The translations under genes were made by a program, and so were the position numbers. A stretch of DNA of 34,943 bases, from contig VGDZ01000030.1 of assembly GCA_016869515.1 (NCBI GenBank), forward strand, positions 1-34,943, written 5' to 3'. The notes beneath the pieces are model-generated. The model ran no database searches. It had not been told where the DNA came from and worked only from the letters and a program-made list of their open reading frames with translations. Shown here one piece after another: positions 3,605 through 34,667 of the stretch. Position 1 is the first letter of the stretch, and each line of letters opens with the position of its first letter. This DNA comes from Alphaproteobacteria bacterium. Its GTDB lineage: Bacteria > Pseudomonadota > Alphaproteobacteria > VGDZ01.

Positions 3605-4777
3605 ATGCGACCCAACAGCTATCCGACGCTGGATTTCGATCTGGGCGAGAACGCCGATTTGCTGCGCGGCTCGGTCGCGGCCTTTACCGCCAAGGAATTG
3701 GCGCCGCGCGCCGCCGCCATCGACCGCGACAACGAGTTCCCGGCCGACATGTGGCGCAAGCTGGGCGAGCAGGGCCTGCTCGGCATCACCGTCGAGGAGC
3801 AATACGGCGGCGCCGGCATGGGCTATCTCGAACACGTCGTGGCGATGGAGGAGCTGAGCCGCGGCTCGGCCGCGGTCGGGCTGAGCTACGGCGCGCATTC
3901 CCAGCTTTGCGTCAACCAGATCCGCCGCAACGGCAGCGAGGCCCAGAAGCGGCGTTTCCTGCCCAAGCTGATCTCGGGCCATCACGTCGGCGCCTTGGCG
4001 ATGAGCGAGCCGGGCGCGGGCTCGGACGTGGTGTCGATGAAGCTGCGCGCCGAGAAGAAGGGCGATCGCTACGTCCTCAACGGCTCCAAGTTCTGGATCA
4101 CCAACGGCCCCAATGCCGATCTGGCGGTGGTCTACGCCAAGACCGACCCGGCCGCGGGGCCGCGCGGCATCACCGCCTTCGTGGTCGAAAAGGGCATGAA
4201 GGGCTTCGGCCAGATGCAAAAGCTGGACAAGCTGGGCATGCGCGGCTCCAACACCGGCGAGCTGGTGTTCGAGGACTGCGAAGTGCCGGCCGAGAACGTG
4301 CTGGGCGAGATCGGCCGCGGCGTCAACGTGCTGATGTCGGGGCTGGACTACGAGCGCGCGGTGCTGGCGGGCGGGCCGCTCGGCATCATGCAGAGCTGCA
4401 TGGACGTGGTGGTGCCCTACCTTCACGAACGCAAGCAGTTCGGCCAGGCGATCGGCAGCTTCCAACTGATGCAGGGCAAGCTGGCCGACATGTACACCAC
4501 CATGAATGCCGCCAAGGCCTATGTCTACGCCGTGGCCAAGGCCTGCGATCGCGGCCGGACCACGCGCAAGGACGCGGCCGGCGCCATCCTTTACGCCTCC
4601 GAGCGCGCCACCTGGATGGCGCTGGAGGCGATCCAGTGCCTGGGCGGCAACGGCTACATCAACGACTATCCGACCGGGCGCCTGCTGCGCGACGCCAAGC
4701 TGTACGAGATCGGCGCCGGCACCTCGGAGATCCGCCGCATGCTGATCGGGCGCGAGCTGTTCGAAGAAACCGCGTGA
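3605..4777 (+). CDS. ivd: Isovaleryl-CoA dehydrogenase (acyl-CoA dehydrogenase family)
   Basis: A flavoprotein that oxidises isovaleryl-CoA to 3-methylcrotonyl-CoA in leucine breakdown and passes electrons to ETF. The 390-aa product shows the acyl-CoA dehydrogenase signatures [10 protein letters not shown] (132-141) and the C-terminal [10 protein letters not shown]. Two features point to the isovaleryl subfamily. The catalytic base lies in the [14 protein letters not shown] block (E250). The glutamate that serves as base in most other family members near the C-terminus is replaced by glycine in [12 protein letters not shown]. The start at 3605 follows GGAGAAACCGC, 15 bp after maeB. The usual partners (methylcrotonyl-CoA carboxylase, liuC, HMG-CoA lyase) are not adjacent, so substrate choice is inferred from the protein alone. 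Confidence 0.9.
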
Positions 4778-4814
4778 GAAAGGCGCATGCCCGCGCGGAA
4801 CGGCGCGAAAAAAC

Positions 4815-5100
4815 GCCGGTTCGGCACTATTAAGCGCGGAACGAGTCCCCAAAGGCGCGGAGCCGAGGCGGAAATGCGCGGAAATGCGCGCAAACGGCCA
4901 ATTTTTAACCACCCATGTCTTTGATTGTATTGATGAATTAAGGTATGTCGGGTGCAAGAGCCGCAATTGGCCGTTAACCCCTGCCTCCGCCCCGGACTTG
5001 AACGCGGGACGGATAGCAAGGGAGGCCATAGGGTAGGGCGGTCCTTCGATAGGTTGGTAGAAGAACAGTATATATAGCGAACATTGCAGAACTTGTCAAG
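4815..5100 (-). repeat. Dispersed ~260-bp repeat, copy A (direct partner at 30315-30591)
   Basis: Aligns with 30315-30591 in the same orientation. The core 4834-5020 aligns without gaps, and by hand I count about 23 differences over about 188 bp. The outer 5060-5100 segment is also conserved after a 9-nt length difference. Within it: words AAAGGCGCG, AAATGCGCG, AAATGCGCG and AAACGGCCA begin at 4851, 4872, 4882 and 4892, spaced 21/10/10 (one DNA face). Inverted arms AACGGCCAATT (4893-4903) and AATTGGCCGTT (4965-4975) enclose a 61-nt loop. A minus-strand promoter sits at the right end (see 5071-5099). It lies between ivd and the MntA/HepT pair. No transposase and no target-site duplication are evident. 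Confidence 0.88.
5071..5099 (-). promoter_or_regulatory. Sigma-70-type promoter inside repeat A, with GAAC-N6-GAAC in the spacer
   Basis: On the minus strand: -35 TTGACA (5094-5099), a 17-nt spacer, and -10 TATATA (5071-5076), a near-consensus housekeeping promoter. The plus strand shows GAAC at 5079-5082 and 5089-5092, 10 bp apart, both inside the spacer and thus placed like a repressor site. Transcription would start near 5064 and run through the repeat toward the 3' end of ivd. The same arrangement is kept in copy B. It resembles the alphaproteobacterial LexA operator (GAAC-N7-GAAC) but is one base shorter. Confidence 0.6.
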
Positions 5101-5236: not shown

Positions 5237-5548
5237 ATGCTGGCATTGTCCGACGATACCCGCGAACGCATCGCGGCGCTGTGCCGCCGCCACCGCGTCG
5301 CGCGGCTGGAACTGTTCGGCTCGGCGCGGACCGAACGCTTCGATCCGACGCGCAGCGACGCCGACTTTCTGGTCAGTTTCGAGCCGGCTTCGCGCGACGA
5401 TCTGACCGCCTACCTCGATTTCAAGGAGGGGCTGGAGGCCCTGCTGGGACGGCCGGTCGACCTGATCGAGCGACGTGCGATCGAGGCCAGCCGCAACTAC
5501 ATCCGTCGCCGCCGCATCCTGGGCGAAGCCGAGGCGGTATTTGGCTAA
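5237..5548 (+). CDS. mntA: MNT-type nucleotidyltransferase antitoxin (MntA family)
   Basis: A 103-aa minimal nucleotidyltransferase. The NTase motif is G28-S29 followed by S40-D41-A-D43 in FGSARTERFDP..SDADFLVSF, with the third acidic residue D75 in PVDLIE, so the active site looks intact. In characterised MntA/HepT systems the antitoxin neutralises the HEPN RNase by adding AMP units to a tyrosine of HepT. Its stop codon (5546-5548) overlaps the start of the HEPN gene, and the pair is transcribed toward the CoA operon. It lies 136 bp from dispersed repeat A. The ATG at 5237 has no strong ribosome site. Confidence 0.85.
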   Translation: MLALSDDTRERIAALCRRHRVARLELFGSARTERFDPTRSDADFLVSFEPASRDDLTAYLDFKEGLEALLGRPVDLIERRAIEASRNYIRRRRILGEAEAVFG

Positions 5549-5897
5549 GGCCGACCCCGGCCGCGACGCGGCCTTGCTGTTGGACATGGTTCTGGCCGCG
5601 CGCGATGCGAGGGGATTCCTGTCCGGTGTCGACAAGGCAGCCTTCTTGGCCAGCGCGCTGCATCAAAGCGCGGTGATTCGGAAATTGGAAGTCATCGGCG
5701 AGGCGGCGGGCAGGGTCTCGACTGAATTGCGCGCCAAGCACGCGGCCGTGCCATGGCGCGAGATCATCGGCATGCGTCATCGACTGATCCACGGCTACGA
5801 CGATATCGACCTCGACACGGTCTATGCCGTGGTGCGCGACCGGCTGGGCCCGCTGATCGCCGCGCTGGAACCCTTGATTCCCAAGGACCAGGTTTGA
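5541..5897 (+). CDS. hepT: HEPN-domain toxin (HepT / DUF86 family)
   Basis: A 118-aa all-alpha HEPN protein, the likely RNase toxin of the pair. The catalytic motif R-x4-H-x-Y is complete: R79, H84 and Y86 in MRHRLIHGYDDID. The tyrosine is the residue that MntA AMPylates in studied systems. I chose the TTG at 5541, which overlaps the antitoxin stop by 8 nt and gives a normal-length N-terminus. An ATG at 5586 would remove 15 residues, including the start of the first helix. The gene ends 36 bp before a palindromic repeat that separates it from the convergent CoA-transferase gene. Confidence 0.83.
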   Translation: MAKADPGRDAALLLDMVLAARDARGFLSGVDKAAFLASALHQSAVIRKLEVIGEAAGRVSTELRAKHAAVPWREIIGMRHRLIHGYDDIDLDTVYAVVRDRLGPLIAALEPLIPKDQV

Positions 5898-5933: not shown

Positions 5934-5989
5934 AGGGCATGATCGATCTGTCTTGAACCGCCCGGTTCATGACGAAACGATCATGCCCT
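5934..5989. repeat. Palindromic intergenic repeat, family 1, copy 1
   Basis: The outer arms AGGGCATGATCG and CGATCATGCCCT are perfect 12-mers. The inner arms GAACCG/CGGTTC close a 2-nt loop. The middle arms pair only partly. It lies between the convergent hepT and CoA-transferase genes, where it could end transcription from both sides, although no T-tract follows. Related copies lie at 12579, 33802, 34535 and 34609. Confidence 0.85.
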
Positions 5990-33801: not shown

Positions 33802-33860
33802 AGGGCTTGATCCGCGATCGGCCTTGAACCATGCGGATCGTGACCGATCGATCTTGCCCT
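33802..33860. repeat. Palindromic intergenic repeat, family 1, copy 3
   Basis: AGGGCTTGATC at the left end and GATCTTGCCCT at the right, with middle arms CGATCGG/CCGATCG and a degenerate centre TTGAACCATGCGGATC. The outer arms have a two-base mismatch that is repaired in copy 4. It lies between the convergent caspase-FGE and higA genes. Confidence 0.8.
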
Positions 33861-34503: not shown

Positions 34504-34534
34504 GCGCCGGTGGCTCGGACAGGATGCGGTGCCG

Positions 34535-34591
34535 GGGCAAGATCGTTTCGTCGCCAACCAGACGGATCGTGACGAAACGCGAATCTTGCCC
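34535..34591. repeat. Palindromic intergenic repeat, family 1, copy 4
   Basis: The outer arms GGGCAAGAT/ATCTTGCCC are perfect. The middle arms CGTTTCGTC/GACGAAACG are perfect and unlike those of other copies. The centre CCAACCAGACGGATCG is degenerate. Confidence 0.82.
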
Positions 34592-34608: not shown

Positions 34609-34667
34609 AGGGCATGATCGATCCGCCTAGAACCATGCGGTTCAGGGCGGATCGCGGATCATGCCCT
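34609..34667. repeat. Palindromic intergenic repeat, family 1, copy 5
   Basis: The outer arms AGGGCATGATC/GATCATGCCCT are perfect. The middle arms GATCCGCC/GGCGGATC and inner arms GAACC/GGTTC around an ATGC loop are also perfect. This is the best-paired member, 17 bp after copy 4. Confidence 0.88.

Follow-up and report, generated by a model that had tools for sequence, protein, structure and literature searches.

The two copies of an intergenic repeat in the 34,943-nt window (the whole stretch of alphaproteobacterial DNA that was analysed) probably belong to a multi-copy family of noncoding RNA genes or intergenic elements that carries a housekeeping promoter of the sigma-70 type, CTTGAC-N17-CTATAT. 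Judged from the sequence, the repeat would be transcribed, RNA rather than DNA would be its functional form, and expression would be constitutive. The genome (3.69 Mb in 166 contigs) holds approximately 30 copies of the repeat at E ≤ 0.001, which differ in the leader and share a core. The coordinates of the features are collected in Table 1.

Table 1. Features of the two repeat copies in the window and of their promoter-side neighbours
Feature	Position	Strand	Remarks
Repeat copy 1	4834..5100	-	Complete type-A element, extent taken from alignment to other copies
Repeat copy 2	30334..30591	-	82% identity to copy 1
Conserved core	4860..4980	-	GTTAACGG...AATTGGCCGTTTGCGCGCATTT; common to about 30 loci
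-35 hexamer TTGACA, copy 1	5094..5099	-	Preceded by C (CTTGAC); invariant across seven copies
Spacer, copy 1	5077..5093	-	AGTTCTGCAATGTTCGC, 17 nt; GTTC at 5092-5089 and 5082-5079 (GAAC-N6-GAAC on the plus strand)
-10 hexamer TATATA, copy 1	5071..5076	-	CTATAT in the alphaproteobacterial register
-35 hexamer TTGACA, copy 2	30585..30590	-
Spacer, copy 2	30568..30584	-	AGTTCTTTTATGTTCCC, 17 nt; GTTC-N6-GTTC at 30583-30570
-10 hexamer TATGTA, copy 2	30562..30567	-
Predicted noncoding transcript, copy 1	4790..5064	-	Start and end predicted; runs into the repeat toward the convergent acyl-CoA dehydrogenase-like gene
Predicted noncoding transcript, copy 2	30294..30555	-	Start and end predicted
Predicted 5' hairpin, copy 1 transcript	4978..5022	-	z -3.2
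Predicted hairpin, copy 2 transcript	~30522-30478	-	z -2.55 for the whole copy 2 transcript
MNT-like nucleotidyltransferase and HepT-like pair (toxin-antitoxin type)	5237..5897	+	Pfam PF01909, PF01934; divergent from the copy 1 promoter
Short AAA/zeta-toxin-like fragment	30909..31193	+	Pfam PF13671; PF06414 below cut-off; promoter side of copy 2

Promoter at the Edge of the Repeat

The minus-strand sites pointed out in an earlier note read as described there, namely TTGACA, 17 nt, and TATATA (5099-5071) in copy 1 and TTGACA, 17 nt, and TATGTA (30590-30562) in copy 2, each with a GAAC pair at a 10-bp step (GAAC-N6-GAAC) in the spacer. The sequence CTTGAC-N17-CTATAT is the alphaproteobacterial sigma-70 consensus (MacLellan et al. 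2006, as used in PMC2573895 and PMC2873474) and has been found upstream of 101 Sinorhizobium sRNA candidates (PMC2873474). Copy 1 matches it at all 12 positions and copy 2 at 11 of the 12. The hexamers and the 17-nt spacing are thus common to this promoter class and both window copies; however, the window sites add an invariant GTTC after the -35 and an invariant TTC before the -10. Across the six full type-A copies, identity amounts to 100% in the -35, 84% in the -10, 71% in the spacer, 65% in the leader, and 90% in the core, and the retention of the hexamers inside a drifting spacer and leader argues for a functional promoter. The promoter assignment made in the earlier note is upheld by this conservation together with the fit to the consensus, and it is well supported, at the level of sequence, that the window sites are ordinary housekeeping-type (sigma-70) promoters. 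In the genome as a whole, TTGACA-N17-TATNNT occurs at just 10 places, and the reversed control has none. Five of the 10 are located within members of the repeat family or immediately upstream of them (C2, C65, C39, C58, and C79).

The repeat is noncoding and comprises approximately 300 bases, with the alignment among copies extending from CTTGACA (5100) to about 4834, and farther in some. Among the six full copies, homology starts exactly at CTTGACA, which places the promoter at the extreme edge of the repeat and sets the direction of reading into it. The promoter had been described as pointing outward; instead, it lies at the repeat end and points inward, from 5064 to about 4790 in copy 1 and from 30555 to about 30294 in copy 2.

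Types of Repeat Copies

The promoter of the window type defines type A, which consists of seven copies: the two window copies and a single copy on each of contigs 149, 150, 25, 102, and 15. About 18 sister copies form type B, in which a promoter is followed by a hairpin, GCTGATGGANNNGTGAA, a second hairpin and, in most, the same core; these include L171 (C65:5744-5842), L176 (C2), L169 (C39), L170 (C58), L147 (C79), L151 (C114), and L152 (C35), among others. The type-B motif is present at 15 genomic places at up to one mismatch and at none in the control, and the sequence directly before GCUGAUGGA in the leader folds into a hairpin that is stabler than its shuffles in all 16 instances tested (mean z -1.7). 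The type-B leader, i.e., GCUGAUGGA with its preceding hairpin, is a candidate new RNA motif if it is transcribed. Most type-B copies keep ATG-GAN-NNG-TGA/TAA, and in all three changed copies TGA has become TAA; selection may act here on a very short start-stop frame or on an RNA motif.

The sister copies C2 and C65 carry a perfect consensus promoter, TTGACA-TGTTCCATTCAAGTTCC-TATAAT. The promoters of the type-B copies L164 (C1), L178 (C86), L172 (C66), L174 (C96), and L168 (C17) approximate TTGAA[AT]-N17-CATAT, which we take to resemble the alphaproteobacterial heat-shock (RpoH) type, and different sigma factors may be used by sister copies. The type-C copies L161 (C80), L163 (C20), L162 (C7), and L160 (C87) lack TTGACA and keep ATGTTCACTCT....TATATGAG, and in them GTTC precedes a -10-like hexamer (TATATG) by 12-13 nt; the copy on C20 is flanked by the palindrome CCTCATAT/ATATGAG.

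Predicted Transcript

From the housekeeping promoter, RNA polymerase would initiate at about 5064 and 30555, and the product would be a noncoding RNA of approximately 250-300 nt in which a stable 5' hairpin comes first and the conserved core follows. The 5' hairpin is stabler than shuffled sequences in all six full copies (mean z -2.7, all values below zero), and the fold of the whole predicted RNA scores z -1.4 and -2.6 in the two window copies. A secondary structure of the repeat transcript is plausible from these predictions. RNA covariation, checked in both the 5' hairpin and the core, is not above chance, and a role at the DNA level is for this reason conceivable.

No frame of the repeat appears to be maintained for a protein. 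The ratios of nonsynonymous to synonymous change range from 0.78 to 1.61 over the six frames, with no purifying selection in any, and the family thus comprises several homologous copies free of coding constraint, as expected for a multi-copy noncoding family. A protein product was considered separately for the frame that is open in types A and C from an ATG shortly after the promoter; this frame extends beyond the repeat to random lengths without signs of purifying selection, and the candidate was rejected. On the transcript strand, no site resembling an intrinsic terminator was found inside either repeat copy.

In most copies, the predicted transcript would approach a convergent neighbour gene from the 3' side of that gene. 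Among the called genes within about 600 nt downstream, selected by a GC3-based gene pick, 16 of 20 neighbours are convergent and often end near the element; in the window, these are an acyl-CoA dehydrogenase-like gene ending at 4777 (copy 1) and an nrdR-like gene ending at 30175 (copy 2). The plus-strand codons at 30190-30272 finish in ...SKLTQARALGVAVPSEAERRKLLAG* and, by reading only, resemble the C terminus of a DNA ligase; this fragment abuts copy 2, and the copy on C149 shares bases around the stop codon of the DNA ligase-like fragment.

The GTTC Pair and Its Possible Regulators

In a random 17-nt spacer with the same composition, GTTC-N6-GTTC is expected at a probability of approximately 2.7e-4, a value that applies to a single spacer, since the copies share descent and are not independent. 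The direct repeat had been called conserved, which is borne out in part: in the seven type-A spacers, the invariant columns are GTTC (2-5), TTC (13-15), and C17, while the bases between them vary. The -35-proximal GTTC and the TTC are thus kept in seven of seven, whereas the second GTTC is complete in four, column 12 being G in four copies, T in two, and A in one. The spacing of the pair is not kept among further copies, an outcome that the earlier note had named as refuting its reading: it is N7 in C2 and C65, where the promoter spacer still measures 17, and in C39, C58, C79, C114, C35, and others the -35-proximal GTTC is absent and only GTTC(C) or TTCC stands just before the -10. The common denominator among the copies is the -35, the -10, and the 17-nt spacing, not the GAAC pair. 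It is probably these three elements that are under constraint, with GTTC and TTC being intrinsic to the promoter or inherited; the GTTC beside the -35 and the TTC beside the -10 would reflect the sequence preferred by the promoter or shared descent, not a LexA operator. A GAAC direct repeat that recurs in two related copies does not by itself indicate an operator.

The main rival to this reading is that the GTTC pair serves as operator for a non-LexA repressor or activator, which would contact one face of the DNA between the -35 and -10 and control all type-A copies together. The positive support for it is the invariance of exactly GTTC, TTC, and C17 between variable bases, which could reflect a bound protein; in a post hoc test, eight invariant columns placed at random give GTTC and TTC 10 bp apart about 1% of the time. 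The GTTC at 12-13 nt before the -10-like hexamer in type-C copies also fits such a site. However, the G of the second half-site is lost in three of the seven copies, the sister types share only the -10-proximal TTC(C) or shift the pair to N7, and the genome shows no excess of N6 pairs (57 against 89 in the reversed control). Such a regulator is possible, although we judge it unlikely.

The resemblance of the pair to a LexA operator, also raised in the earlier note, is of the general kind that a GTTC direct repeat within a promoter is common to both. The Caulobacter LexA motif is GTTC-N7-GTTC (PMC12700426), and the genome itself encodes one LexA gene over the family cut-off, with a GAAC-N7-GAAC site 69-83 bp upstream of the lexA start, at the lexA promoter; no clear LexA-type site was found at recA. 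Genome-wide, GAAC pairs at N7 are likewise not enriched (34 against 80 in the reversed control). Since the genome's own lexA site is N7 and neither spacing is enriched, LexA control of the repeat promoter is unlikely on sequence grounds.

A Possible Mobile-Element Origin and Neighbouring Genes

The repeat could also be a mobile or recombining DNA element resembling RIME, REP, or MITE sequences, kept as DNA rather than as RNA, with the promoter as a by-product. Its dispersed, intergenic distribution and the mosaic 5' ends (types A, B, and C) on one core are what such an element would present, as are the toxin-antitoxin genes that flank several copies on their promoter side and the other insertions found inside the copies on C150 and C39. 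Target-site duplications, the mark of an insertion sequence or MITE, were looked for at the repeat copies and are absent, and no terminal inverted repeats were seen; moreover, the -35 and -10 are conserved above their surroundings, suggesting selection on the promoter. A DNA element of this kind is therefore distinctly unlikely. A LexA-controlled promoter with an unusual operator one base shorter is very improbable, since the perfect LexA spacing of two sister copies and the presence of a single LexA gene are set against N6 in both window copies, a spacing that varies among copies, and a half-site broken in three of seven.

Genes of toxin-antitoxin type stand on the promoter side at 5237-5897 and 30909-31193 in the window and at L158 (C15), L152 (C35), L145 (C58), L150 (C91), and L078. 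They comprise MNT/HepT, RelB/YafQ, ParD/ParE, a zeta-like fragment, DUF4258, and nucleotidyltransferases. Paralogous caspase-like genes, so assigned by reading, occupy the promoter side of three family copies (window 31526 onward, L154 on C149, and L075). An integron attC site, prompted by GTTAAC and the adjacent toxin-antitoxin genes, was rejected, since GTTAACG/C departs from GTTRRRY and no array is present.

Two further repeats accompany the family. The first is MITE-like, is bounded by ATACCAA...TTGGTAT, and contains GCGTTGACCG..CGGTCAACGC; it forms an insertion of approximately 144 nt between promoter and core in the C150 copy (L155), a relative lies near window copy 2 (about 30738-30820), and L146 (C39) is a further locus. 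The second is a palindromic dispersed repeat, AGGGCATGATCGATC...GATCATGCCCT, with at least four copies in the window (5934-5989, 33805-33850, 34534-34579, and 34609-34654) and others inside or beside further family copies.

Relation to Known Families

Searches for relatives were largely negative. Against Rfam, the window had no match at the gathering score and copy 1 none at E up to 1, while the type-B loci yielded, besides a single tRNA, just weak matches that did not reach the gathering score, none of them to the type-B motif. The type-A repeat gave two short weak matches, neither convincing, in 57 genomes of other families of the same class, and no convincing match in plasmid and phage collections; the core pattern had no match in viral contigs. 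One or two matches to the type-B motif occur in 10 of 384 other genomes of the class, none with the promoter or core, and were attributed to chance; a scan of all genome contigs with TTGACAAGTTCNNNNATGTTC returned 47 scattered matches in unrelated phyla, at about the chance level.

The promoter is of a known kind, and the repeat family appears to be undescribed in the libraries searched and akin to alphaproteobacterial multi-copy noncoding elements or sRNA genes. The multi-copy trans-encoded sRNA families of Rhizobiales (such as SmelA075/SmelA099, PMC3927594) likewise have paralogous noncoding copies per genome and hairpin modules; the likeness is drawn without direct sequence comparison, and the present family differs in its approximately 30 copies, the absence of an Rfam match and of a visible terminator, and its predicted transcription. 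The Rhizobium-specific intergenic mosaic elements (Osteras et al. 1995, cited in PMC2873474) are also dispersed alphaproteobacterial mosaic repeats of intergenic regions, a likeness by description alone; in contrast to these, the present repeat has a consensus promoter at one end.

A more far-reaching proposal, which we regard as doubtful, is that the approximately 30 loci constitute an undescribed lineage-specific family of structured, promoter-driven RNAs, in which at least two leader types (type A, and type B with hairpin-GCUGAUGGANNNGUGAA-hairpin) are joined to one core. Its members would lie where convergent genes have their 3' ends, frequently beside toxin-antitoxin pairs, and would answer to a common regulator acting on the GTTC and TTC boxes. 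For the housekeeping-promoter reading favoured here, the regulatory site itself is ordinary, and the weight lies in the family of about 30 loci, in several of which a consensus promoter is retained at one edge of the noncoding element. If transcribed, these loci would give an isolated lineage of the Alphaproteobacteria an abundant family of noncoding RNAs.
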